Assembly (NCBI GenBank): GCA_947625545.1 | Contig: CANQOW010000006.1 | Location: forward strand, 1 to 35,133 | Source: an uncultured Clostridia bacterium | GTDB taxonomy: Bacteria; Bacillota; Clostridia; TANB77; CAG-508 | Length of the DNA: 35,133 bases | Direction of reading: 5' to 3' | Shown here: positions 91-26,440 of the stretch, piece after piece | Position numbering within the stretch: position 1 is the first letter of the stretch | How the letters are laid out: every line of letters starts with the position of its first letter | Program-made: the position numbers and the translations under genes | The notes under the pieces: model-generated | What the model was told of the DNA's origin: nothing | Database searches by the model: none | The model's input: only the letters and a program-made list of their open reading frames with translations

Positions 91-1329
91 TTATATTAGT
101 ATTGTATTTAAATACTTATCTAATTTTCCCATTTCATCTATCTGTAATTCTGATAATACATGAGTATAAGTATCTAATGTAAATTGAACGCTTGTATGTC
201 CAAGTATTTTGCTAACAACTTTAGGTGACATATTACTTTCTAATGCTCTAGTTGCAAAAGTGTGTCTTAGTGCATGAAAAGTACATTTTTTAATCCCTGC
301 TTTTTTAGCTAGTTGTTGATATTTACTCAAAACAGTATCTGGGTCCAAATAATATCCATCTTCTCTACAAAATACCATATTATATTTATAATATTTTTTT
401 CCTAGCTTTCGCTTATATTCTTGTTGTAATTCTTTTTGTTGTTTTAATATGTCTTCCAAAGTTTTTGCCATTGGTATTATTCTAGTAGAATTATTTGTTT
501 TTGTATTATATTGAATAAATAGTTTTGTTCTCCTACTTGTAGTTGTTTCATAATCCTTAAGTCTACTAAGTTGTTTATTTACATTAATAGTTTTATTTTC
601 AAAATTAATATCATCCCATTGTAACCCTAAAATTTCTCCCTTTCGCATTCCAGTATATAAAGCCATTATAACTACTGTTCCATAAATTTTATCTTTTTTT
701 GATATTTCTATTAGTTTTTTTTGTTCGTCTTTTAAATATATTTCTATTTCTTTTTTCTTTTGATTAAGATTTTTTAATGTTGGAACTTTAGCTATATCAG
801 CTGGATTTTTATTTATATACCCTAATTCCAAAGCTTCTTGCAATGCTTCATGCAAAACTAAATGTATATTTCTTACTGTTTTTACAGATAACCCATTTCC
901 ATTTGTTCTATTTTTACTACATTTTATTAATTTATTATACATACTTTCAATATCAATTTTGCTTAAATTCACTAACTTTATATTTCCTATATAATGTATT
1001 AAATGATTATTAATAATACTTTCATAACTAATTCTAGTAGAAATTCTAACATTATTTATAACATAAGTTTCATACCAAATATTTAACCATTGAGAAATAG
1101 TATATTTTACAATATTTTCGTCTTTAAATTTATCCCTATTTGTTTTATAATCATCTAATTTTTTTATTACAACAGACTGTTTTTTACTAGAAAAAGTTTT
1201 CCAATGTTGCTTTCCATCTGAAGTATATCCATCTGTTATTCTAGCTTCCCATCTTCCATCTTTTAATTGCCTTATGCATCCTTCTCCATTAGCCCTTTTA
1301 CTTCTTTTATTTTTTCTATTTCTTTTCAC
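91..1329 (-). CDS. int: Tyrosine recombinase (integrase) of the mobile element
   Basis: Site-specific recombinase of the Tn916/phage integrase class, expected to insert and excise the element through a 3'-phosphotyrosine intermediate. The 412-residue protein has a basic N-terminus, an arm-site-binding AP2-like domain (about 12-45, GEGCIRQLKDGRWEARI), a SAM-like core-binding domain (about 75-180) and a complete catalytic domain. Catalytic residues visible are the Arg in TGMRKGEILGL, His352 and Arg355 in HALRH, His378 in GHT and Tyr388 in TLDTYTHV. Full length matches the family. The start is GTG, inside the end of the upstream serine recombinase gene (14-bp overlap), so translation is probably coupled. 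It is the leftmost gene of the element, so one att site should lie within the first 90 bp or beyond the window edge. Confidence 0.95.
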   Translation of the reverse strand: MKRNRKNKRSKRANGEGCIRQLKDGRWEARITDGYTSDGKQHWKTFSSKKQSVVIKKLDDYKTNRDKFKDENIVKYTISQWLNIWYETYVINNVRISTRISYESIINNHLIHYIGNIKLVNLSKIDIESMYNKLIKCSKNRTNGNGLSVKTVRNIHLVLHEALQEALELGYINKNPADIAKVPTLKNLNQKKKEIEIYLKDEQKKLIEISKKDKIYGTVVIMALYTGMRKGEILGLQWDDINFENKTINVNKQLSRLKDYETTTSRRTKLFIQYNTKTNNSTRIIPMAKTLEDILKQQKELQQEYKRKLGKKYYKYNMVFCREDGYYLDPDTVLSKYQQLAKKAGIKKCTFHALRHTFATRALESNMSPKVVSKILGHTSVQFTLDTYTHVLSELQIDEMGKLDKYLNTILI

Positions 1330-1924
1330 TTTTTATTCCTCTTTCTATTATATTAATATATTTATAAATTGTTGGATATGATAAATTGCATAATCTTGAA
1401 AATTCCATTTTATTGATTTCTTTATTTTTATATTTTGCATAATGTTTATAAAATATTGATGGAATATTATTTTCTGTTGTATATGGTCTTCCTAATACTT
1501 TACCTTTTGCTTTAGCATTTTGTATTCCACTTTTTACTCTTTCACTTATTATATTTCTTTCAAGTTCTGCAAATACTCCCATCATTTTTAACATACCTTC
1601 AGTCATAGGGTCTAATTCTTTTGTGCAATCTACTACAAAATTTCCTAGAATTAGTTTTATCTTTTTGTCCTTAGCTAATTCTATAATATCGCATAACTGT
1701 TTCGTGCTTCTTGTTATTCTACTAACTTCTGTTGAAATTATTGTATCTCCTTTAACTATAATATTTAATAATTTATTTAGCTCTATTCTATCTGCCTTTG
1801 TACCACTTTCATATTCCCAATATATATTTTGTTTTAATACATTTTGTTTTTCTAATTCTCTTTTTTGCCTATCTATATCTTGTTTTGTTTCATCTGTTGA
1901 ACATCTTGCATATCCATAAATCAT
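1316..1924 (-). CDS. Small serine recombinase (resolvase/invertase family)
   Basis: A 202-residue small serine recombinase. The N-terminal catalytic domain has the nucleophile Ser9 in YARCSTDETKQ, the SRITRS arginine segment, and the dimer helix GVFAELERNIISERVKSG. A short C-terminal Hin-type helix-turn-helix (about 170-192, FSRLCNLSYPTIYKYI) binds DNA. Length and layout match resolvases and invertases rather than large serine integrases. A GGAAG ribosome site precedes the ATG at 1924. It overlaps the downstream tyrosine integrase gene by 14 bp. Two recombinases from different families in one transcription unit suggest separate jobs: integration/excision for the tyrosine enzyme, and multimer resolution or inversion for this one. 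That division is inference. Confidence 0.93.
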   Translation of the reverse strand: MIYGYARCSTDETKQDIDRQKRELEKQNVLKQNIYWEYESGTKADRIELNKLLNIIVKGDTIISTEVSRITRSTKQLCDIIELAKDKKIKLILGNFVVDCTKELDPMTEGMLKMMGVFAELERNIISERVKSGIQNAKAKGKVLGRPYTTENNIPSIFYKHYAKYKNKEINKMEFSRLCNLSYPTIYKYINIIERGIKSEKK

Positions 1925-2167
1925 AATTATTACTTCCTTTTCTACTACATATATAAAAGAAAATATTACTTTAATTTCTTTTATATTTTTTACTATTTTT
2001 TTACCAAATTTTATTAATATTTTTATTCATTATAATTATAAATAAAATTATTTATTTTCTTTTATATCTTCTTTTTTTCTTTTTTCTTTTTAATAATATA
2101 TTTTTTTAAATGTAAAAGAAGATGAAATATATACCTTTTTAGCTTTTATTTTTCTTAAAAAAGTACT

Positions 2168-2671
2168 TTAAAAATATTCACTTTTAATTGCATTTCGTCT
2201 TTCTAAAATTTTATTAAATATTCCATTTTTACTTACACTATTTGCTTGTTTTAGAGAATAATTAATAAAATTTTTAGCCCATTTTCCTTTATCAGTAGCA
2301 ATTAACATACATATATTTGATTTAAATCTTTTATTAAAAGCATTTATTAAATTTTTGCCAAACTTATATGCTGAATGCTTTTCATTTCCAATTATGCATA
2401 AGTGTATATGTGTAGGAATTTTATTTCCAAATACTAAAGTTTTTGGTCTACCTCTTTTACCCTTTATCTTTATTTCTCTTTGTGCACAATGACTGCTGTC
2501 TGTATTACTAACTACTAGTAAATAACTAGCATATAGATACTTTTTGCTATATCTTCTTAAAGTATTTTTTATTGAATAAATATCTTTTTGTGTCAAATTT
2601 ACTTTAAAAAAATATATTTCATATAGCATTGCTGGTAAATTTTCTTCAAATTCTTTTAGCCTATATACCAT
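2168..2671 (-). CDS. HUH-type Rep-like single-strand nuclease
   Basis: A 167-residue protein with a probable HUH motif, His88-Ile-His90 in IPTHIHLCIIG, at the end of a beta strand. A candidate nucleophile, Tyr138, sits about 48 residues later in NFINYSLKQA, with a Lys three positions on. This order (HUH, then Y plus K) is that of single-tyrosine Rep and relaxase/TnpA enzymes that nick one DNA strand and stay covalently attached. The protein is shorter than most plasmid Rep proteins and near the size of Y1 transposases, but the rest does not read as a clear IS200/IS605 TnpA. It overlaps the excisionase gene by 11 bp, implying coupled translation, so it probably acts in element replication or mobilisation. 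The motif is seen directly; the function is inferred. Confidence 0.7.
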   Translation of the reverse strand: MVYRLKEFEENLPAMLYEIYFFKVNLTQKDIYSIKNTLRRYSKKYLYASYLLVVSNTDSSHCAQREIKIKGKRGRPKTLVFGNKIPTHIHLCIIGNEKHSAYKFGKNLINAFNKRFKSNICMLIATDKGKWAKNFINYSLKQANSVSKNGIFNKILERRNAIKSEYF

Positions 2672-2855
2672 TGCAATTTTTAGATAGCCATATTTTTAGC
2701 TCTTTTTCAGGAATCAATATTCTCTTTCCGCCTATTCTTATTATTGGAAAATTTTCTGCTTTTATTAATCTATATGCCATGCTTAATGAAATTTTTAATA
2801 TTTTAGATAGCTCTTTTACTGTATAGACAAGAGGTTCTATTGTGTTTTCTTGCAT
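2661..2855 (-). CDS. Excisionase (Xis)-like helix-turn-helix protein
   Basis: A 64-residue protein that is essentially one MerR/excisionase-type winged helix: YTVKELSKILKISLSMAYRLI (recognition helices, about 11-31), wing residues around IIRIGGKRILIP, then EKELKIWL. This is the standard helix-turn-helix-17 excisionase layout, and the length fits. Its ribosome site is near-perfect (AAGGAGGCG at 2860-2868), so it is probably well translated. It would bend DNA near the att site to favour excision by the tyrosine integrase. Its 3' end overlaps the HUH gene, which links excision with replication or nicking in one transcription unit. Confidence 0.88.
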   Translation of the reverse strand: MQENTIEPLVYTVKELSKILKISLSMAYRLIKAENFPIIRIGGKRILIPEKELKIWLSKNCNGI

Positions 2856-2880
2856 TATATCGCCTCCTTAAATACATTTT

Positions 2881-2976
2881 AATTTGAAATCCTTTACATC
2901 ATTTTTTCCTTTCCCTACCTTTACAATTTTTCCATTTCAAACCTTTATTTTTTCTCTTGCTATACAAATGTGTATA
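2881..2976. repeat. Short repeats and dyads upstream of xis
   Basis: The leader of the xis operon holds two direct CCTTTACA copies (2891-2898 and 2918-2925), with a third partial match ACCTTTAT near 2941. It also holds an ATTTGAAAT/ATTTCAAA inverted pair (about 2883 and 2934) and the dyad TATACA-aatg-TGTATA near 2961-2976. Such clusters can be integrase arm sites, Xis sites, or a nicking origin for the HUH protein. In DNA this AT-rich some matches are expected by chance. Confidence 0.3.
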
Positions 2977-3040
2977 TTATTTCATCTTCATATAATATAT
3001 ATAAAATTTTATGAAAATTTACATTTCTAATACAAAAAAA

Positions 3041-3313
3041 TTATATTTTTTTGTCAGAAAATAATATTAAGCTATCTTTAAAACCTGTTTTATATGCTTG
3101 TTCTAACTGCATTGTACACATATCAATTAGTATTTCTTCATAATAACTCATTAGTTTTTTATTATTAATTATATTTTTTATATTTGAAAATATAGCATAA
3201 CATTTATCTCTAGTTTCTTTATACTCTTTCGTATGTATTGTTTTTGTATAACTTTCATTTAATCTTTCCTCTATAAATTCATTAATGTTATCAAGCAATG
3301 TAACTTTATTCAT
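3041..3313 (-). CDS. Small helical protein of the element (DUF6809-like?)
   Basis: A 90-residue, predicted all-helical, charged protein. Its C-terminal pattern (YYEEILIDMCTMQLEQAYKTGFKDSLIL) resembles the short element-borne DUF6809 type, with a helix ending in a G-F-x-x-G/S-x-x-L segment. This is a loose visual resemblance only. It has no catalytic motif, signal peptide or membrane segment. A GGGGGTGA ribosome site precedes the ATG at 3313. It is the first gene of the minus-strand xis/HUH unit and lies directly under a well-formed promoter with dyads, opposite the HTH regulator. It is therefore an early gene of the element, function unknown. Confidence 0.7.
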   Translation of the reverse strand: MNKVTLLDNINEFIEERLNESYTKTIHTKEYKETRDKCYAIFSNIKNIINNKKLMSYYEEILIDMCTMQLEQAYKTGFKDSLILFSDKKI

Positions 3314-3341
3314 CTTTTCACCCCCATTTTTATCTTCAATA

Positions 3342-3366
3342 TATAAATTGTATTTATCAATTTATA
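3342..3366. promoter_or_regulatory. Inverted repeat at the start site of the minus promoter
   Basis: Perfect 9-bp arms TATAAATTG (3342-3350) and CAATTTATA (3358-3366) around a 7-bp centre. It sits just downstream of the minus-strand -10 box, over the expected transcription start of the 3313 gene. It could be an operator for the adjacent HTH protein or a leader hairpin. Confidence 0.45.
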
Positions 3367-3373
3367 TATTTAT

Positions 3374-3402
3374 ATTTTAAATTAAATTCTATATATTGTC
3401 AA
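3374..3402 (-). promoter_or_regulatory. Sigma-A promoter for the xis/HUH transcription unit
   Basis: On the minus strand, TTGACA (3402-3397) is followed by a 17-bp spacer and TAAAAT (3379-3374), 11 of 12 consensus positions. It points at the 90-residue gene and onward to xis and the HUH gene. It is divergent from the HTH gene promoter, with the two -35 boxes about 42 bp apart. Confidence 0.7.
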
Positions 3403-3405
3403 TAC

Positions 3406-3436
3406 ATTTATAAAAAATATCTATTATTTTATAAAT
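3406..3436. promoter_or_regulatory. Candidate operator between divergent promoters
   Basis: Perfect 10-bp inverted repeat ATTTATAAAA (3406-3415) and TTTTATAAAT (3427-3436) with an 11-bp centre. Its midpoint (3421) falls almost exactly midway between the two -35 boxes (3402 and 3444). That geometry is typical of a repressor switching divergent promoters. The likely binder is the HTH protein at 3515-3730. The dyad is visible; its function is inferred. Confidence 0.5.
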
Positions 3437-3443
3437 TTTAAAT

Positions 3444-3472
3444 TTGACATATTAAATTTTATATGTTATATT
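3444..3472 (+). promoter_or_regulatory. Sigma-A promoter for the HTH regulator
   Basis: TTGACA (3444-3449), a 17-bp spacer and TATATT (3467-3472), with a TG extended -10 at 3464-3465. It is a very strong match, pointing at the HTH gene that starts at 3515. Confidence 0.75.
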
Positions 3473-3514
3473 ATAAAAGTATTATTTTATATGTAAGATA
3501 AGGATGTGTTAAAA

Positions 3515-3730
3515 ATGGGTATGGCAGAAAAAATAAGAATTTTACTCATAAAAAGAGGAAATATTTCTGAAGCAGAATTAGCTAGAAGAATAAATACAAC
3601 TCCACAAAATTTCAATAGCAAAATGAAAAGAGATAATTTTACAGAAAGAGATTTAATAGAAATAGCAAATGTTTTAAATTGTTCTTATAATCCAACTTTT
3701 GTATTAAATGATACTGGAGAACAAATATAA
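3515..3730 (+). CDS. Cro/C1-type helix-turn-helix regulator
   Basis: A 71-residue single-domain DNA-binding protein. The segment EAELARRINTTPQNFNSKMKR is a lambda-repressor-type helix-turn-helix, followed by RDLIEIANVLNCSYNPTFVL, as in the small regulators of Tn916-like elements. A GTG lies upstream at 3506 but is only 2 bp from the AAGG ribosome site. The ATG at 3515 (11 bp spacing) is preferred, and an ATG at 3521 is also possible. It is transcribed divergently from the xis/HUH unit over a dyad-rich region, and it is followed at once by its own terminator. It probably represses or switches element excision genes. The family call is firm and the target is inferred. Confidence 0.87.
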   Translation: MGMAEKIRILLIKRGNISEAELARRINTTPQNFNSKMKRDNFTERDLIEIANVLNCSYNPTFVLNDTGEQI

Positions 3731-3761
3731 TTTTTTAATTTTATTTATAAATTAATATAAC

Positions 3762-3789
3762 TAAAACACTTACAGAAGTAAGTGTTTTA
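3762..3789 (+). terminator. Terminator of the HTH regulator
   Basis: Perfect 12-bp stem TAAAACACTTAC / GTAAGTGTTTTA around the loop AGAA. It lies 31 bp after the stop codon of the HTH gene and isolates it as a monocistronic unit. Confidence 0.75.
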
Positions 3790-3815
3790 AATTTAAAATT
3801 TATATAATTAATTTT

Positions 3816-3899
3816 TTATTTTAGATTTAGAAATTCGTTTTTTTGTGTAATTATTTCTGAATCAAGTAAATTTTTATACTTTAAAAATTCGTCTGGTTT
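3816..3899 (-). pseudogene. SHOCT-like C-terminal gene fragment
   Basis: A 27-codon open stretch ending in TAA and preceded by TGA reads KPDEFLKYKNLLDSEIITQ followed by KNEFLNLK. This closely resembles the short C-terminal SHOCT domain (pattern: E-x-L-x-x-Y-K-x-L-L-D-x-G-I-I-T-Q-x-E-F). No start codon or ribosome site is in frame. It sits just downstream of the HsdR-N-like nuclease gene in a different frame, so it looks like the remaining 3' end of a gene lost by deletion, or a frameshifted former tail of that nuclease. The homology is judged by eye. Confidence 0.45.
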
Positions 3900-3917
3900 T
3901 CACATATCTTTATTACT

Positions 3918-4967
3918 TTATTTTATAATATTTTCTAATCTTTCTATTAACTGTTGTTTTAATTTATAAATATCTGAAACATTTTCTATTTCATATCTAA
4001 TCTCTTTTTTATCCTTATCTGGAATTATTAAAAATTTAACATTTTCTTTTAAGAATACCCTACAAATCCATTTGGTTACCTTATTATCATATAGTATACC
4101 AAAATAACTATTAGTATCTTTATAGTATATTTGTTTTGAATTAACTGTTTCTGCGAGAATGGCTTTTACAGTATAATAACTTTCTAACTCTTCTTCTGTT
4201 GTAACAATTTCATCTTCTTCAATTATTTCCCCAATGTCATTATTCACCTCAGTAGGATTATTTAGTACTGTTTGTAACCTTTGATTTATCAAAGTATTTA
4301 TATAATGATTTATAGATTTCTTTAAAATTGCTCTGTATTTGTCTATTATATTTTGTGTTTTAACTCCATCATATACTCCTTTATTTAAAATTAATTTTAT
4401 AAAATCATCTGATGGATTATCGAATTCTTCTAATAATATTTTTTCAATGGAACTAGCATATTTTAAATTAGAAGCAGAACTCATGATTGTATCAATATCA
4501 AAATTTTCTTTACAAAACTTTTTTATTTCAACAATATCACTATCTTTTAAGTTTAATAAATCAATTTCTAAAAAAGGTGCAATGTCCATTTTATTAGCTT
4601 CCTCTAAATCTGTATAGAACTTATAAATCATACCATTTGTTAATATCCCTATTTTAGCAGTAGTAGTTCCAAAATACCTAAATAGTTGAGAACTATGCTT
4701 TTGTAAATTTTCATTTATTGATTTTGCTTCGATTAAAATTGTAACTTGATTATTAATAGTAATAGCATAATCAACTTTTTCTCCTTTTTTTATTCCTACA
4801 TCTGCAATATATTCTGGTGTGAATTCTATAGGATTAAATACATCATATCCTAATAAACTAAAAAATGGCATTATTAGTGATGTTTTAGTTGCTTCTTCAG
4901 TGTTAATAGATTTTTGCAATTTTTCTACTCGTTTCGAAAATTCTTTAATTTTTTCTTCAAATTCCAT
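3918..4967 (-). CDS. HsdR-N-like restriction nuclease (stand-alone)
   Basis: A 349-residue protein resembling the N-terminal nuclease domain of type I restriction subunit R (HSDR_N_2 type) without the helicase motor. After a coiled N-terminus comes NTEEATKTSLIMPFFSLLGYDVFNP, the family's opening signature. A PD-(D/E)XK core follows, with Asp66 (KVDYAI) and Glu80-Ala-Lys82 (ILIEAKS), then the QLFRYFG helix. The C-terminal half (about 200-349) is unassigned and contains an acidic run near 250. The start at 4967 is chosen because TAAGGAGGAA precedes it; a longer reading from 5045 lacks a ribosome site and would overlap the upstream gene. It lies 10 bp after the Mrr-FtsK-gamma gene, its ribosome site touching that gene's stop, so the two are co-expressed. 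No methyltransferase is present. It probably has a defence or DNA-processing role. Confidence 0.8.
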   Translation of the reverse strand: MEFEEKIKEFSKRVEKLQKSINTEEATKTSLIMPFFSLLGYDVFNPIEFTPEYIADVGIKKGEKVDYAITINNQVTILIEAKSINENLQKHSSQLFRYFGTTTAKIGILTNGMIYKFYTDLEEANKMDIAPFLEIDLLNLKDSDIVEIKKFCKENFDIDTIMSSASNLKYASSIEKILLEEFDNPSDDFIKLILNKGVYDGVKTQNIIDKYRAILKKSINHYINTLINQRLQTVLNNPTEVNNDIGEIIEEDEIVTTEEELESYYTVKAILAETVNSKQIYYKDTNSYFGILYDNKVTKWICRVFLKENVKFLIIPDKDKKEIRYEIENVSDIYKLKQQLIERLENIIK

Positions 4968-4977
4968 AATTTCCTCC

Positions 4978-5820
4978 TTATATATTATTTGATTTATTCC
5001 ATCTTTCTTTTGTAATAAGAACTTGTCTTGGCTTACTTCCTTCATAGCCAGATATAATGCCTTTTTCTTCTAACTGTTCCATAATTCTTCCTGCTCTTGC
5101 ATAACCTACTTTAAATCTTCTTTGTATAAATGATGTAGATGCTTGTCCAGTTTCTATTACTGTTTCAATAGCCTCGTTTAAAAATGGGTCTATTTCGTCA
5201 TTATCATCAATTATATTTTTATTATTCATATACATTTTTTTATCAATATTTTTTATATCAATTTCAAATGTTTCACATAGCATTTGAAGTAGTTTATCTC
5301 TATCCCATAATTCTACTGATAATATCTCAGCTTCTTTTTTAGCCTGTTTTGTAAAATAGTTATTTGTTATAACTATAGATTTATCACACTTATATATATC
5401 TTTTGCAGTATATACTTCTTGTATTGCTTTATTTCCTACAGTATCTGAATAATTTTTACATTGAAAAACATATTTTATATTCTCTTTTGTTGCAATTATA
5501 TCTCCTCCGTCATCTCCACTTGCTTTTGTAACTTGTGCATTATAACCCAATTTAATTAAAATTTTTGCAAAATATTCTTCAAATTCTATCCCACTTAATG
5601 TATCTACAAGTATTAATTCATGCTTTATAAAAAAATTTTCTCTATTTTTTATTTCTATGTCTAAATTATTTTTCTGTTTTAAAATTCCACTCATTTGTGT
5701 TTCTAATAAGTTTTTTTTCTTTTCCATAGCATTAATTTCTTTTGATAATATTGTTTTGCTTTCTTCTAACTTATTAATTTCTTTTTTTAGTTGTTCTTTC
5801 TTTAATATTGAAAATAGCAT
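4978..5820 (-). CDS. Mrr-type nuclease fused to FtsK-gamma DNA-binding domain
   Basis: A 280-residue three-part protein. Residues 5-65 form a Lys/Glu-rich coiled coil. Residues 75-182 are an Mrr-type restriction endonuclease domain with Glu79, Asp107 in GDDGGD and Gln120-Cys-Lys122, the complete D...QxK active site. Residues 211-271 are an FtsK/SpoIIIE gamma winged helix (DPFLNEAIETV, then ASTSFIQRRFKVGYARAGRI, then EQLEEKGII), the domain that reads polarised chromosome sequences (KOPS/SRS) near the terminus. No FtsK motor is present. The fusion suggests a nuclease steered to specific short host sequences, or one interacting with the host translocase. It is followed after 10 bp by a second nuclease gene, and opposite lies an Arc-like regulator. 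The ribosome site AGGTGA and a sigma-A promoter precede it. Confidence 0.88.
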   Translation of the reverse strand: MLFSILKKEQLKKEINKLEESKTILSKEINAMEKKKNLLETQMSGILKQKNNLDIEIKNRENFFIKHELILVDTLSGIEFEEYFAKILIKLGYNAQVTKASGDDGGDIIATKENIKYVFQCKNYSDTVGNKAIQEVYTAKDIYKCDKSIVITNNYFTKQAKKEAEILSVELWDRDKLLQMLCETFEIDIKNIDKKMYMNNKNIIDDNDEIDPFLNEAIETVIETGQASTSFIQRRFKVGYARAGRIMEQLEEKGIISGYEGSKPRQVLITKERWNKSNNI

Positions 5821-20358: not shown

Positions 20359-20501
20359 TTTTTGAATATAATATATTTAATTTTATGCAGTTCCGCGTAG
20401 CATGGAAGCGAGTTAGAGACTGTTTGAGCTTTGCTCAATACAGTTCTCTTACGAGACGACCAACAAGGAACAAATAAAAATAAATATATTATGTTCAAAA
20501 G
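20359..20501. repeat. Long imperfect inverted repeat (MITE-like or structured RNA)
   Basis: A roughly 143-bp palindromic block, clearly richer in G+C in its core than its surroundings. The outer arms are AT-rich: TTTTTGAATATAATATATTT from 20359, matched on the other strand by ACTTTTGAACATAATATATT from 20502. Inside these, GTTCC (20390-20394) pairs with GGAAC (20467-20471). The centre is a long hairpin: AGAGA, CTGT and TTGAGC pairing across a TTT loop (20430-20432) with GCTCAA, ACAG and TCTCT. It lies between the anti-sigma gene and the response regulator gene, about 85 bp before the latter's start codon. It could be a small non-autonomous mobile repeat or a leader/small RNA. Confidence 0.65.
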
Positions 20502-20538: not shown

Positions 20539-21507
20539 TTATTTGTCAGTACTTATTATAACATCTTCATCTTTGACTACATTTGGTTCTATTGTATATT
20601 TAGTATCAAATGTGTTATATTTATAATCACTATTTTTATATATTGGAACTTCTTGTTGAGCAAATATTCTATCAATTATCATTGTTTCTTTATTTATCCA
20701 ATACTCATATTTTGTATTAACTCCATTATATAAATATGTTAAAACATAATAATTTTTATTATTATATTTTTCTTCTCTTAAATTAAAGTCATCTAGCATT
20801 GAAATTTTACTTGATAAATTTTTTGAATGTGTTACTATTACTGAATATATATCTTCATATATTTTGCCTTTTTCTATATATTGCTTTTCTTCGCTAATAT
20901 TTGTTTCTCCTGTTTCTGCATTTTTTGTTATAATATTTGTATCTCCATCAGAATAATATATTGTTTTCATATTTTCATTTCTTATTATTCCGTCTTCAAT
21001 ATATTCTCCATTATCATAAAAAAATGTCATAGATCTTGTGTTTTCTTCCTTATATTTTCCGTCTTTATAATAATATGTTGTTATTTTTTTTTCTAATATT
21101 TCGTCAGTAATTTGTCCTATTTTTTCTATGGTTAATTTATAATTGTTCATTTCTTTTAATTCTTGAATTTTATTATATGTTTTTGCTCTTACAGAATTTA
21201 TTGGTATAAATCTAATAGCAAAATATATAGCATAAGATAATAAAATAATTAATAAAATTATAGTTATTATTTTTATTATTAATTTTCTTGTTTTTATTTT
21301 TTTTATTAATTTTATTTCTGCTTTTTCTTCTATATTATTTATTATTTTTTCAACATCATTATTATTTTCTTCCATTAATTTTAATGTTTCTTTACATTCA
21401 TTACAATTAGAAATATGATTATCTATATAACTTTTTGTTTCATCACTTACTAAATTTTCTATATAATTTGGTAGTAAATCTCTTATTAGTGCACAATTTT
21501 TTTTCAT
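20539..21507 (-). CDS. Zinc-finger anti-sigma factor
   Basis: A 322-residue single-pass membrane protein. The N-terminal anti-sigma domain carries a zinc-binding ZAS pattern: Cys5, then His31-x3-Cys35-x2-Cys38 (HISNCNECKE). A Lys-rich stalk and one membrane helix (about 74-97) follow. The roughly 220-residue extracytoplasmic part resembles DUF4367/lipoprotein-type beta domains, with repeated Tyr-rich strands (YYKDGKYKEEN, YYSDGDTN). It would hold the ECF sigma factor inactive until an envelope signal releases it. Its ATG overlaps the sigma stop by 4 bp (ATGA), the usual arrangement for a coupled sigma/anti-sigma pair. Confidence 0.88.
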   Translation of the reverse strand: MKKNCALIRDLLPNYIENLVSDETKSYIDNHISNCNECKETLKLMEENNNDVEKIINNIEEKAEIKLIKKIKTRKLIIKIITIILLIILLSYAIYFAIRFIPINSVRAKTYNKIQELKEMNNYKLTIEKIGQITDEILEKKITTYYYKDGKYKEENTRSMTFFYDNGEYIEDGIIRNENMKTIYYSDGDTNIITKNAETGETNISEEKQYIEKGKIYEDIYSVIVTHSKNLSSKISMLDDFNLREEKYNNKNYYVLTYLYNGVNTKYEYWINKETMIIDRIFAQQEVPIYKNSDYKYNTFDTKYTIEPNVVKDEDVIISTDK

Positions 21508-21995
21508 TTTGTTTCCCCTTTCTTGCTATTATTATTTATATTTTGTTTTAAATTAAGTTTTGTTCTATAAAAAACTACTCGTGCCCAATTTTCACTTTTA
21601 TTTAATATTTGTCCTATTTCTTTAAATGTAAATCCAGCAAATATTCTTAAATTAATTATTTTTTTTGATGTTTCATCTAAATTTTTAATTTTATTATGTA
21701 TTTCTATTTTTTCGATACTTTCTTCTGTATCGTCATTAGTTAACCAATTTTCTATATTTTCGTCATACTCTATTATTTTTATTTTATTATTTTTTATTTG
21801 ATAATTTTTCCACTTATTTTTTGCGATTTGGCATAACCACGAATAAATTTGACAATCATTTCTAAAACTATTTATATTTTTTATTGCACTATAAAAAGTT
21901 TCTTGCATTAATTCTTCTGAAAGTTCATGATTATGTGTCAACGTATATAAATATTTATATACATATTTGCAATATTTTTTGTATATTTGCTCCAT
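21504..21995 (-). CDS. ECF-type RNA polymerase sigma factor
   Basis: A 163-residue group 4 sigma factor. Region 2 is YKKYCKYVYKYLYTLT...SEELMQETFYSAIKNI, with SWLCQIAKNKWKNY as its end. After a short acidic linker, region 4 is LDETSKKIINLRIFAGFTFKEIGQIL...VFYRTKLNLKQ with a helix-turn-helix. The start at 21995 follows AGGTGA; a GTG at 22004 is part of that site. A TGTAAC-N17-TGTC promoter just upstream matches the one before the neighbouring membrane-protein gene, so it probably activates its own operon. The anti-sigma gene overlaps its stop codon. Confidence 0.94.
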   Translation of the reverse strand: MEQIYKKYCKYVYKYLYTLTHNHELSEELMQETFYSAIKNINSFRNDCQIYSWLCQIAKNKWKNYQIKNNKIKIIEYDENIENWLTNDDTEESIEKIEIHNKIKNLDETSKKIINLRIFAGFTFKEIGQILNKSENWARVVFYRTKLNLKQNINNNSKKGETK

Positions 21996-22017
21996 TATAA
22001 TCACCTATATTAAATTA

Positions 22018-22044
22018 GACAATTTATTTTACTATTTTGTTACA
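22018..22044 (-). promoter_or_regulatory. ECF-type promoter, copy A (sigma operon)
   Basis: On the minus strand, TGTAAC (22044-22039), a 17-bp spacer ending AATAAAT, then TGTCTAA (from 22021). The -35 element lies in the 15 bp after the upstream gene's stop codon. The same two boxes and the same spacing occur at 23726-23752. Such AAC...GTC boxes are characteristic of ECF sigma promoters in Gram-positives. Confidence 0.75.
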
Positions 22045-23688
22045 AAATTTGTCAAATTTATTTTTTTCATAAATAATATAAACAATAAAACTTATAATTC
22101 CAATTATTGATATAATTAATGATATTTTACTTAATTTTGTTCCAGTATATTTTACTTCTATTTTTCCATTTGTATTTTTGGGGATTTTAATACTAATAAA
22201 TCCATTTTCTGATTCTTCATAATTTATATATTTATTATTTAATTTTATATTATAACCTAAATAATAAATATATGGTAATTCTATAATACTATCTTGCGTA
22301 AATGTTTCTATGTAAAATTGCATATTTGTTTTTTCTTTTTTTTCGTTTTTTATTTTTGCATTTCCATTTAGTATTATGACTTTATTTTCTCTATTTTGTA
22401 TATATGGTGTTCTTGCTTTTACAGGTAAATAATCGTAATTTGTACATTGCTGACTAAATGCATATATATTTTCTATTTTTTCTGTTTTATATAAATATGA
22501 TATATCAAAATTAAAATCAAAATTTATTATTTTAGACATATATATTCCGCTATATATAATAGTTATAAATATTACTAATATAATTCTTATATTTTTTTCT
22601 TTTATAACACATATACTAATATTTATTCCTGATATAATGCTTAAGAAAAATGTTGAATATAATAACATTCTCCATGGAAATTGTATTATTAAAAATATAT
22701 CTGGTATATTATTCCAAGGAAAAATTTTTGTAGATATTAGAGAAGTTACAATTCCTATAATTAATATAGTAATATATAAATATCTTTTTTCTTTATTTAT
22801 TTTTTTATAGCAAATTGGTGTAAGTAATAGTGGTATTAATATTGTAAATCCTATTGTCATTATTATTTGTTTTAAATTTATTTCTGAATTTACTACAAGT
22901 TCTCTTGATGTCATTCCATCTTTTACCATAGCAATATATTCAGCACCTAATTTATGTTCTAATAATGGTATCATAAAAAAGGAAACTATTAAAATAATAA
23001 AAAATGCATTTATGAATAAATCTTTCCATATTTGTCTGCTATTTTTCCATAATTTTTTCCAATGAAATAAAATTATAATTATACTTAAAATTGCTAGAAT
23101 TAAACTACTAATATTATGTGATAATAAAATTCCTACTGCTCCAATAGTTAATAAATAATTTTTTTTACCTTTTTCATAAAAAATATTGTATAAACCATTA
23201 AATAATAATGGCATAAATACATATACCATTATTTCGCCTATTGCTAATCTTACATATATATCTGTTATAAAATATATAGAGGTTATATATATAGTTGATA
23301 CTATTAATGCTATTTTTTTATTTTTAGTTATTTCTTTTATAAATTGAAACATAAATATACTTGCTAAAATAATTGATAATATTATTATTAATTTCATATC
23401 TATTATATAATTTGGTATTATTAAATAAAATATAACATTTATATATGTACTTAGTGGAGGATAAAATAAATTCCATGAATATCCGAATCCTCCACAAAAA
23501 TTTGATACTATTTCTGGTAATAATTGTCCTGATTTTATTGCTTCAATAGTGGCATAATTTCTTGAAAAATGTGCAGTTCCATCATCTGTAATAAAAAATC
23601 CATTTATAAACAAAGGTATGCACATTAATATTGCGATTAATATTAAAATACTATAATATAATAAATTGTCTTTTTTTAATTTTTTCAT
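22024..23688 (-). CDS. Large GT-C-type membrane glycosyltransferase-like protein
   Basis: A 554-residue protein with about eleven to twelve hydrophobic helices and an extracytoplasmic C-terminal beta domain (about 410-520), closed by a last helix (about 525-543) and a basic tail. The first outer loop holds FITDDGTAHFSRNYATIEAI, an Asp-Asp motif placed as in GT-C lipid-sugar glycosyltransferases. The layout resembles the YfhO / 6-pyruvoyl-tetrahydropterin-synthase-related membrane proteins involved in modifying envelope polymers. The donor and acceptor are unknown. An ECF-type promoter identical in form to that of the adjacent sigma operon precedes it, so it is probably the main target of that sigma factor. 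AAAGGA precedes the ATG. Confidence 0.78.
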   Translation of the reverse strand: MKKLKKDNLLYYSILILIAILMCIPLFINGFFITDDGTAHFSRNYATIEAIKSGQLLPEIVSNFCGGFGYSWNLFYPPLSTYINVIFYLIIPNYIIDMKLIIILSIILASIFMFQFIKEITKNKKIALIVSTIYITSIYFITDIYVRLAIGEIMVYVFMPLLFNGLYNIFYEKGKKNYLLTIGAVGILLSHNISSLILAILSIIIILFHWKKLWKNSRQIWKDLFINAFFIILIVSFFMIPLLEHKLGAEYIAMVKDGMTSRELVVNSEINLKQIIMTIGFTILIPLLLTPICYKKINKEKRYLYITILIIGIVTSLISTKIFPWNNIPDIFLIIQFPWRMLLYSTFFLSIISGINISICVIKEKNIRIILVIFITIIYSGIYMSKIINFDFNFDISYLYKTEKIENIYAFSQQCTNYDYLPVKARTPYIQNRENKVIILNGNAKIKNEKKEKTNMQFYIETFTQDSIIELPYIYYLGYNIKLNNKYINYEESENGFISIKIPKNTNGKIEVKYTGTKLSKISLIISIIGIISFIVYIIYEKNKFDKFCNKIVK

Positions 23689-23725
23689 ATATTTTCCTTT
23701 TTTATTTTTTGTTTATATTATTTTA

Positions 23726-23752
23726 GACAATTTATTATATTAATTTGTTACA
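23726..23752 (-). promoter_or_regulatory. ECF-type promoter, copy B (membrane protein gene)
   Basis: On the minus strand, TGTAAC (23752-23747), a 17-bp spacer ending AATAAAT, then TGTCTAA (from 23729), about 38 bp before the start codon. It matches copy A at both boxes, in spacer length, and in the final seven spacer bases. Confidence 0.75.
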
Positions 23753-23767
23753 AAAAATGATTAAGTA

Positions 23768-26440
23768 TTATATATTTTCATTTCTTATTGTCTCTATTGT
23801 ATTTTGTTTATTTATTTTATTCATTGAATATCTCATTATTAATGAAATTAATATAAATACTGCTATTATTGTAATTAATATTGCTAATATTGGTAATTTA
23901 TAAGGTAAGCCATCTAATTCGTCTTTTAATAAATAATGTATTACGTAAGATAATATTATTCCTACGGGGATACCGAATATTAATGCTTTTATTCCCATAA
24001 ATGCAGTTTCTAATTTTATCATTCTGCTAAATTCTTTTGTTGTCATTCCAATTGATTTTAGCATTGCAAATTCTTGCTTTCTTAATTCCATATTTGTTGT
24101 AATTGTATTAAATATGTTTGTTATTCCTATTAATGTTATTACTATTATAAATCCATACAAGAAAATGCCAATTAATGTGAATAAATTATTCATTGCTTTT
24201 ACATTTTCATCTATGTTTGATATTGAATAACTGCCCTCATCTTTTAATGTTCGTTCTATATCGTCTTGTAATTTATTTGCATTACTTGTTTTAAATAATA
24301 TTTCTTCTGTATTTGCTTGTGCTATTTTATTAAATAATTCGTCACTTAATATTAATAATGAACATGTTGTTGAATTTTTTAACCAAATTGGTTTTTTATC
24401 TGTTAAATAACCTATTTCTATTGTGGTTGTTTCGTCATTTTGCATTATTCCTTTTATTTTATCTCCAACTTGATATGAATATACTCTCATATATTGTTTG
24501 TGTTCTTTATTATTTTCATCTTTTGATGTCATTGTTAAATAATCTATTAATATTCCTTTGTCTTTTATTTCTTCATAATCTAAACCTAATTCTTTTATGT
24601 ATTTTTTATATGGTTCATCTCCTAAAACCGTAAGGATTATTCCTGTTCTTACTTCTTCATTTGGTTCTATATTAAACCAATCTATATATTCTTTGCTAAA
24701 TGCTAATTGTTTTCCTATAAATGACATACCTTCTTGTCTTATTATTGCGTAATCTTCTATTCCGTCTAATTGTGTTATTTCTAGATATTTTTTATAATCA
24801 TCATCGTTTTTTAATTTTCTTACATATAGTGATAAATTATATTCTGTTAAATTTAACTCTTGTTCTACTAAATCAAATGCTATGCTCATAAAACTTGATA
24901 GCGATATAAATACCATTACTGATACTGCTATTGATATTATTGTTGTTCTATATTTTTTCTTATTTCTTTTTAAATTTTTAAGTGATATTTCTCCTCCCAT
25001 TCCAAATATTTTCTTTATTATTTTTGGTGTTTTTATTTTTTTATAATTTATTTTTATATCTGCACTATTTCTTATTGAGTCTATTGGTGTTATTTTTGAT
25101 GCTTTTTTTGCACTTTTTAATGCCGAAAAGTATATTGTTACTATTCCTAATATTATTGAAATAATTACTGCCATTATTGAAAATACAAATTCTAATTTTA
25201 ATCCTTCTTCTGTTAGGAAATTACTTAAATAATAATTGCTTACTATTATTAAAATATATGATGCTATAAAGCCTGAAATTATCCCTAATGGTATTCCTAT
25301 AATTCCTAATATTGTTGCTTCGTAAAATACATTTTTCTTTATCTGTTTTTTAGTTGCTCCTATACTTCTTAACATTCCATATTGTTTTATTTTTTCTGTT
25401 ATTGATATGTCAAAACTATTTTTTATACAAAATACTGATGTTACTATTATTATTCCTAATACTATACATACAACTGCACCTAAGCCTCCTATTCCACTAT
25501 CTTTAATTGGATTTGTTTCTAATCCTATTAAGTAATCGTTCATTTTTTCTTCATATTTTTTGTGTTCTCTTTGTTCTAGATATTGGTCGTAATTTTCTTT
25601 TGTAAATTTTCCTTGCATTATTTTTTCGTATAATTCTTCATCTATTCCTATTATGTTTGCGGTTACTTTATCTGCATTTTTTGTTCCTTCTTTTGTGTAT
25701 CTTGCATATACATCTACTTTTCCTTCTTGTATATTATTTTCTTCAATATATGTTATAAATGTATAACCTGGTGCTGAATATTCTTCTATGTTTGTTGCTG
25801 GTCTTTGTATTTTTCCTACTATTTTATATGTTATTGTTTTTGTGTCTATTATTTTTTCGTTACTTTGCTCTTTTAGCGTATTTTCTTGTCCATTTATTTC
25901 TTCTACTATTGCTTCTGATACATAAGGATTTGACTGGTCTAGTTCGTAGTTGTCATTTGTTACTCTTTTTCCTACTTCTAGTGTTATTGTTTCTCCTACA
26001 TTTAATTTTAATCTTCCGTTAGTTTCTAGGTGTGTTGGTATTAATATTTCGTTTTCATTTTCTGGTAGTCTTCCTTCAACTAATTTTATTGATAAATTTT
26101 CTAATGCTGATGTTGTAAATGCTTTTATGTATGCATAAGGTTTGTCTTCATTTTTTGATGCTATTTTTGCATATCCTATATTTTTTACTAGGTTTATTTT
26201 TTCTACTTCTCTATTGTATTTAAAAGTGTCTATTTCATTTATTGGTACATTATAGAATGCAACATGGAAGTTTCCTTTTTCTTGTTTTTCATAAGTTATT
26301 AATGATTTTATTGCACTTGCATATATTGATGCAACTGCCGTTATTAGTGCAACAGATAGTGTTATTCCTATTATTGTTACTATCGTTCTTTTTTTGTTTA
26401 ATTTTAAATTTTTTATTGTTAATTTATTAAGTAAGTTCAT
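23768..26440 (-). CDS. ABC transporter permease with two FtsX domains
   Basis: An 890-residue FtsX/MacB-type permease. It has an N-terminal helix (about 19-41), an extracytoplasmic domain, and a first FtsX block of three helices (about 315-445) with EKIKQYGMLRSIGATKKQI. A fourth helix (near 500) and a second extracytoplasmic domain follow. A final FtsX block (about 755-880) contains MELRKQEFAMLKSIGMTTKEF. Two FtsX modules in one chain are typical of clostridial peptide-resistance or lipoprotein-type exporters. Its ATPase partner is encoded 2 bp upstream. It lacks the single long outer domain expected of BceB, so a bacitracin-sensor assignment is not made. Confidence 0.9.
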   Translation of the reverse strand: MNLLNKLTIKNLKLNKKRTIVTIIGITLSVALITAVASIYASAIKSLITYEKQEKGNFHVAFYNVPINEIDTFKYNREVEKINLVKNIGYAKIASKNEDKPYAYIKAFTTSALENLSIKLVEGRLPENENEILIPTHLETNGRLKLNVGETITLEVGKRVTNDNYELDQSNPYVSEAIVEEINGQENTLKEQSNEKIIDTKTITYKIVGKIQRPATNIEEYSAPGYTFITYIEENNIQEGKVDVYARYTKEGTKNADKVTANIIGIDEELYEKIMQGKFTKENYDQYLEQREHKKYEEKMNDYLIGLETNPIKDSGIGGLGAVVCIVLGIIIVTSVFCIKNSFDISITEKIKQYGMLRSIGATKKQIKKNVFYEATILGIIGIPLGIISGFIASYILIIVSNYYLSNFLTEEGLKLEFVFSIMAVIISIILGIVTIYFSALKSAKKASKITPIDSIRNSADIKINYKKIKTPKIIKKIFGMGGEISLKNLKRNKKKYRTTIISIAVSVMVFISLSSFMSIAFDLVEQELNLTEYNLSLYVRKLKNDDDYKKYLEITQLDGIEDYAIIRQEGMSFIGKQLAFSKEYIDWFNIEPNEEVRTGIILTVLGDEPYKKYIKELGLDYEEIKDKGILIDYLTMTSKDENNKEHKQYMRVYSYQVGDKIKGIMQNDETTTIEIGYLTDKKPIWLKNSTTCSLLILSDELFNKIAQANTEEILFKTSNANKLQDDIERTLKDEGSYSISNIDENVKAMNNLFTLIGIFLYGFIIVITLIGITNIFNTITTNMELRKQEFAMLKSIGMTTKEFSRMIKLETAFMGIKALIFGIPVGIILSYVIHYLLKDELDGLPYKLPILAILITIIAVFILISLIMRYSMNKINKQNTIETIRNENI

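Follow-up and report, generated by a model that had tools for sequence, protein, structure and literature searches.

We analyzed a 35,133 nt stretch of DNA (the window) from an uncultured Clostridia bacterium, which forms contig C6 of an assembly of 1.1 Mb with approximately 85% completeness. On the minus strand of this window, genes for an ECF sigma factor and an anti-sigma factor were found to follow the gene for a GT-C-like membrane protein, which in turn follows genes for an ABC transporter. Together with two predicted promoters, termed P1 and P2, the features are, in the direction of transcription:

27114-26443, minus strand: ABC ATPase
23768-26440, minus strand: FtsX/MacB-type ABC permease (FtsX, 4.9e-37)
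23720-23757, minus strand: P1; -35 box TGTAAC (23752-23747), 17-base spacer, -10 box TGTC (23729-23726) followed by TAA; exact motif
22024-23688, minus strand: GT-C-like membrane protein, the putative target
22012-22050, minus strand: P2; -35 box TGTAAC (22044-22039), 17-base spacer, -10 box TGTC (22021-22018); exact motif
21504-21995, minus strand: ECF sigma factor (Sigma70_r2, 4.6e-11; Sigma70_r4, 1.1e-5)
20539-21507, minus strand: anti-sigma factor (zf-HC2, 1.8e-4, just under the cut-off)

Beyond the anti-sigma gene the minus strand continues with a response regulator, a histidine kinase and a large ABC/FtsX fusion. The nearest genome (Clostridia MAG CANRES01, isolate Lapin-024, a name that suggests rabbit gut; G002 below) is 98% complete and has the same gene order, with approximately 97.6% DNA identity in this region. 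About 60 bases between the anti-sigma and response regulator genes (20361-20419) were found in inverted orientation in this sister genome and are possibly a flipped palindromic element.

The sigma factor is 163 aa long when read from the ATG at 21995. A longer version starting from a GTG at 22004 is less likely, because P2 would then leave almost no leader. The protein contains Sigma70_r2 at residues 5-66 and Sigma70_r4 at residues 104-137 and has no other sigma region, as is characteristic of ECF (group IV) sigma factors, which measure about 160-200 aa. Its best named subfamily model is that of SigM (TIGR02950), with a score of 98.4 bits that falls short of the 147.95 bits needed for membership.

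The anti-sigma gene starts within the end of the sigma gene, the start codon overlapping the sigma stop. It encodes 322 aa, with an N-terminal zinc finger, one transmembrane (TM) segment near residue 76 and an extracytoplasmic C-terminal domain. Its HxxxCxxC motif, single TM segment and position next to the sigma gene are those of a class I zinc-binding anti-sigma factor, and residues H31, C35 and C38 were invariant in 10 homologues. The match of the window's own copy to zf-HC2 lies just under the cut-off (21.9 bits against 22.2), and homologues exceed it, reaching 5e-8. The best match of the anti-sigma family profile to a solved structure is a weak one to RsiW (E = 0.14). Weak matches of the outer domain to a lipoprotein-sorting fold (3bk5, E = 0.18) and, in one homologue, to DUF2092 (0.002) give a hint and nothing firmer, and the single-sequence structure model of the outer domain was too poor for use.

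The GT-C-like protein has 554 aa and approximately 11 TM segments by hydropathy, with an extracytoplasmic beta-rich domain before the last of them. The many TM helices and the beta-rich C-terminal stretch agree with a GT-C fold but do not prove it. A Pfam scan of the protein itself gave no significant family match, and its single-sequence model (pLDDT 45) was too poor for use. Two homologues of 39-41% identity match PF10131 (PTPS_related) above the cut-off (8.8e-8 and 4.2e-7) and the AftD GT-C family weakly, while a homologue of 67% identity matches the C-terminus of YfhO just below the cut-off (1.3e-5). The GT-C label is thus reached indirectly, via homologues, and appears reasonable.

The P1 and P2 sites

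The motif TGTAAC-N17-TGTCTAA was found twice in the window, at 23752-23726 and 22044-22018 on the minus strand, and each copy lies where the first-pass annotation had placed it, that is before the GT-C gene and before the sigma/anti-sigma genes, respectively. P1 reads TGTAAC-AAATTAATATAATAAAT-TGTCTAA and P2 reads TGTAAC-AAAATAGTAAAATAAAT-TGTCTAA. The boxes, the spacer length of 17 and the last seven spacer bases (AATAAAT) are identical, also as annotated, and 14 of the 17 spacer bases agree. The mean number of copies per window in 300 dinucleotide shuffles was 0.007 for this motif and 0.017 for the relaxed form TGTAAC-N16/17-NGTCTWA, with two observed in either case. The -10 box of P2 is located 22 nt from the sigma ATG (21995), and that of P1 37 nt from the GT-C ATG (23688), with a ribosome-binding site in between.

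The two boxes alone are not distinctive. A third bare copy is present at 29565-29540, within a metal-ATPase gene of the window, and a genome scan gave eight copies of TGTAAC-N15-18-TGTC against six in a reversed control, which is background; the raw-frequency test proposed with the first-pass annotation would therefore not have been decisive. The extended consensus did separate P1 and P2 from the rest: apart from these two, all sites matching TGTAAC-N15-17-NGTCTW in the assembled genome are found inside coding sequence. P1 and P2 are thus set apart from other copies by their position and by the extended consensus.

The two promoters appear not to head separate units but to be nested in a single transcription unit, and here the annotation needs to be revised. 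The -35 box of P2 falls in the final codons of GT-C (TTT TGT AAC AAA ATA GTA AAA TAA), and a search for terminator-like sites between the two promoters found none. Because the GT-C and sigma genes are contiguous, transcription from P1 should also read into the sigma and anti-sigma genes and so cover all three, whereas P2 should serve only the latter two. P1 starts 15 nt past the stop codon of the FtsX permease gene on the same strand, so transcripts of the ABC genes may run through the P1 region.

A promoter consensus for a group of ECF genes

The sigma protein was searched in 145 genomes of the family, and homologues were found in 129. At 33 ECF loci we read the 130 nt that precede the sigma gene. 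TGTAAC-N16/17-NGTC was present before the start codon in 26 of these, against 0.05 expected from shuffled upstream sequences, and mostly 20-35 nt 5' of the ATG. Several of the seven loci without the motif have near variants, with TGTAAT for the -35 box or GAC for GTC. Alignment of the 26 sites gave TTTGTAAC-RAAW followed by NGTC-TWA, which may also be written TTTGTAACRAAW...NGTCTWA. The spacer is 16 bases in 18 of the sites and 17 in eight, so the spacing of 17 given in the first-pass annotation holds for P1 and P2 and is one of two lengths used in the family. The base preceding GTC was not conserved, and the -10 box is therefore NGTCTWA and not TGTC as had been assumed from the two copies in the window. 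The predicted promoter of the sigma/anti-sigma operon has the AAC-type -35 box expected for ECF sigma factors. Recurrence before so many homologous genes strongly supports the autoregulation that had been predicted for this locus, and likewise a role of the motif as the promoter through which an entire ECF group regulates itself. A literature search for the TGTAAC motif in clostridial ECF factors found nothing relevant.

We then counted a strict pattern, TTGTAACRAA-N14/15-GTCTWA, in the 145 genomes and in a reversed control. It was found 27 times against once in the control. Twenty-one sites precede ECF genes, assigned by matching the positions of ECF homologues, four are antisense within genes (the one in G002, L213, was assigned from identity with its copy, L224), and two are P1 in the two sister species. 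P1 is the only strict site in the 145 genomes that is neither an ECF promoter site nor located in coding sequence.

Promoter arrangement differs at some loci. In G096 (C19:3472-3601, L221) two tandem consensus promoters approximately 100 nt apart precede one ECF gene. In G071, which belongs to another genus, the ECF promoter occurs twice at an interval of approximately 1.5 kb (C8:3906-5485, L094), and the upstream copy is followed, 5' of the ECF gene, by a Spo0A/response-regulator-like frame that is disrupted in the assembly. Two cultured relatives (Faecalicatena and a Clostridiales isolate; L132 and L133) carry ECF genes of 44-45% identity in which TGTAACGAA lies approximately 40 nt ahead of the start codon; a GTC box is missing at the usual distance, and the anti-sigma factor is short and lacks the long outer domain.

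P1 as the probable promoter of the GT-C gene

Eighteen promoters from other genomes were used to build a profile (R2) that omits every site of this genome as well as the sequences misaligned in the R1 profile described below. It ranked P2 first (22.9 bits) and P1 second (19.7 bits) in the window, the next best site scoring 11.3 bits. In a genome search with the same profile the identical site in G002 scored 18.5 bits. An alternative profile (R1), in which some 17-base spacers are misaligned at the -10 box, returned the promoter of a paralogous ECF gene on contig C51, P2 and P1 as the top three sites of the genome, P1 being third (E = 8.8e-4) and the other sites following at a distance. Around P1, 39 nt (23718-23756) are identical between the sister species; the leader that comes next, 29 nt up to the GT-C start, contains four differences. 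Such a pattern is suggestive, but its power is limited at this divergence, because the link to GT-C rests on two genomes that are approximately 97.6% identical here.

Outside these two species the picture is different. GT-C homologues were found in 62 of the 145 genomes, and the motif was absent before the gene in the 28 best loci read outside the genus, including that of the 67% identical homologue in G126, which adjoins a metG-like gene. Conversely, no GT-C neighbour was found in the other ECF loci fetched. The ECF module is common and, as far as these sequences reach, its neighbours differ by lineage; the GT-C link appears genus-specific and was seen in the two sister species alone. The first-pass annotation had named the GT-C gene as the dedicated target of the sigma factor. 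That it is a target of this promoter type is well supported by the strict count and the held-out profile, but the link is genus-specific and crosstalk is possible.

Since the assembly is only approximately 85% complete, other targets may be missing from it. Three further candidates were considered and rejected. The site at C9:10470, upstream of an ftsA-like gene, is a partial match, and that at C44:923 lacks GTC. The site at C42:2587 has a spacer of 14 bases and precedes a cotJ-like spore-coat operon. TGTAAC-N14-TGTC before cotJA/cotJB-like genes is conserved in both species (C42:2587-2620 here and C42:6112-6144 in G002); a sporulation sigma factor is more likely to act at these sites, because the spacer is too short for the present ECF group.

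P1 could also be chiefly a second, distal promoter of the sigma and anti-sigma genes, with the GT-C gene a passenger between two autoregulatory promoters. There is almost no intergenic room and no terminator was found, tandem promoters before a single ECF gene do occur (G096), and the GT-C gene does not neighbour the other ECF genes fetched. On the other hand, P1 is placed before the GT-C start and its ribosome-binding site just as a promoter of that gene would be, and the second promoter in G071 precedes another gene, suggesting that neighbouring genes become targets lineage by lineage. We consider a passenger role of GT-C unlikely, though it deserves to be taken seriously.

The paralogous ECF factor encoded on C51 offers another reading. 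It is 46-48% identical to the sigma factor described here, belongs to the same group and has the promoter TGTAAC-N16-CGTC; its gene forms an ECF/anti-sigma pair (C51:2018-5027, L020), which is followed by a cardiolipin-synthase-like gene split by an assembly frameshift. Crosstalk with this factor is possible. If P1 were read mainly by the C51 factor, or by both factors, GT-C would belong to a shared and not a private regulon, and the use of one consensus by the whole ECF group fits with this. However, P1 matches P2 in its 17-base spacer, -10 box and last seven spacer bases, whereas the C51 promoter has a 16-base spacer and CGTC; P1 is located directly upstream of the adjacent sigma operon, and the 98% complete sister genome was found to lack a C51-type paralogue and yet to retain P1. 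A regulon shared in this way is improbable.

It is highly improbable that P1 and P2 are housekeeping promoters read by sigma-A, or that they arose by chance in DNA so rich in AT: a sigma-A-like match (TTGACA-N18-TAAAAT) does overlap P2 and the bare boxes occur at background level, but the shuffles gave almost no copies and the extended consensus is almost confined to ECF promoters and all but absent from the reversed control. Sigma-A-like matches are common in this DNA (101 found, 85 expected), and the one over P2 could be a source of basal expression.

A proposed circuit and related systems

Taken as a whole, a small, self-regulated ECF circuit of the envelope-stress type with a P1-driven GT-C gene is the best explanation of the locus and, judged from the DNA, very probably the right one. 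Its promoters, gene content and conservation are read directly from the sequence; the specificity of the sigma factor, the signal, the read-through, the enzyme activity and its acceptor are what we infer, as are an envelope signal at the input and a glycan or lipid at the output. In this circuit a membrane-spanning zinc-finger anti-sigma factor would hold the ECF sigma factor inactive until an extracytoplasmic signal releases it. RNA polymerase carrying the sigma factor would then start at P2, producing sigma and anti-sigma and thereby positive feedback together with its own brake, and at P1, transcribing the GT-C gene and reading on through the sigma and anti-sigma genes. Within the assembled genome, the strict regulon would consist of P1, P2 and the promoter of the C51 ECF gene, which has the same motif. 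Like YfhO, the GT-C protein would probably take a sugar from undecaprenyl phosphate and pass it on to a lipid or a polymer of the surface.

A GT2 enzyme that charges undecaprenyl phosphate, a GtrA-type flippase and a GT-C transferase are parts of a multi-component transmembrane glycosylation system (review PMC8035078). Candidates of all three kinds are present in this genome, unlinked, with the GT2 and GtrA genes on other contigs. The GT2 protein is PgfS/CsbB-like and has two TM segments at its C-terminus (314 bits to the PgfS model, whose cut-off is 500), and the GtrA protein scores above its family cut-off. The lipid-linked GT2 of the CsbB/PgfS type and the GtrA-type flippase could supply the remaining steps.

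More tentatively, and with some doubt on our part, the regulon may be near-minimal, its sole private target besides the sigma factor being one GT-C enzyme between two promoter copies, and the module may belong to a large, apparently undescribed ECF/anti-sigma group in a small-genome family of gut Clostridia, whose outputs beyond itself are lineage-specific. If so, induction of GT-C would be locked to amplification of the sigma factor.

A direct precedent comes from B. subtilis, where sigma-B and sigma-X control the genes csbB and yfhO for lipoteichoic acid glycosylation (PMC8035078). The present locus is similar in that an alternative sigma factor, here of the ECF type, would switch on a YfhO-like GT-C protein whose presumed task is to modify a surface polymer with a sugar carried by undecaprenyl phosphate. 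In B. subtilis, yfhO and its GT2 partner csbB share a transcript, and the regulon is larger; here GT-C stands alone beside the sigma gene with GT2 and GtrA elsewhere, and the strict regulon contains one non-ECF gene. The promoters also differ, the sigma-X -35 box being different from TGTAAC and the sites here being TGTAAC/NGTCTWA.

Sigma-M is the closest named subfamily by profile (TIGR02950), with 98 bits against a cut-off of 148. The sigma-M response to trapped undecaprenyl phosphate is the topic of PMC11081497, in which a passage citing earlier work reports that loss of yfhO activates sigma-M. On the strength of that passage, a GT-C step and an ECF factor would be physiologically linked; a sigma factor that regulates a GT-C gene is nevertheless different from one that senses its loss, and the partner here is a single zf-HC2 anti-sigma factor, not a YhdL/YhdK pair. 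Compared to the class I zinc-finger pair RsiW/sigma-W, the anti-sigma factor shares the zf-HC2 N-terminus, the single TM segment and a gene overlapping the sigma end, but has a long extracytoplasmic domain of a kind shared within its own family.

Circuits in which an ECF factor drives a decorating enzyme of the GT-C type are thus already known, given the control of csbB/yfhO by sigma-B and sigma-X and the activation of sigma-M on yfhO loss. New are the consensus of the ECF group, the very small strict target set and the nested double promoter. TTGTAACRAA-N14/15-GTCTWA provides a ready consensus for a widespread and apparently uncharacterized ECF group of uncultured gut Clostridia, together with one concrete target gene, GT-C, in which regulation can be tested. 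The small genomes of these Clostridia seem to retain many ECF modules that regulate themselves and have very few strict targets outside, which raises the question of how these modules act.

At the start of the contig, the window (91-5820) encodes an integrase, a resolvase, a type I restriction HSDR_N protein and an Mrr_cat protein fused to an FtsK gamma domain, likely a mobile or defence island.
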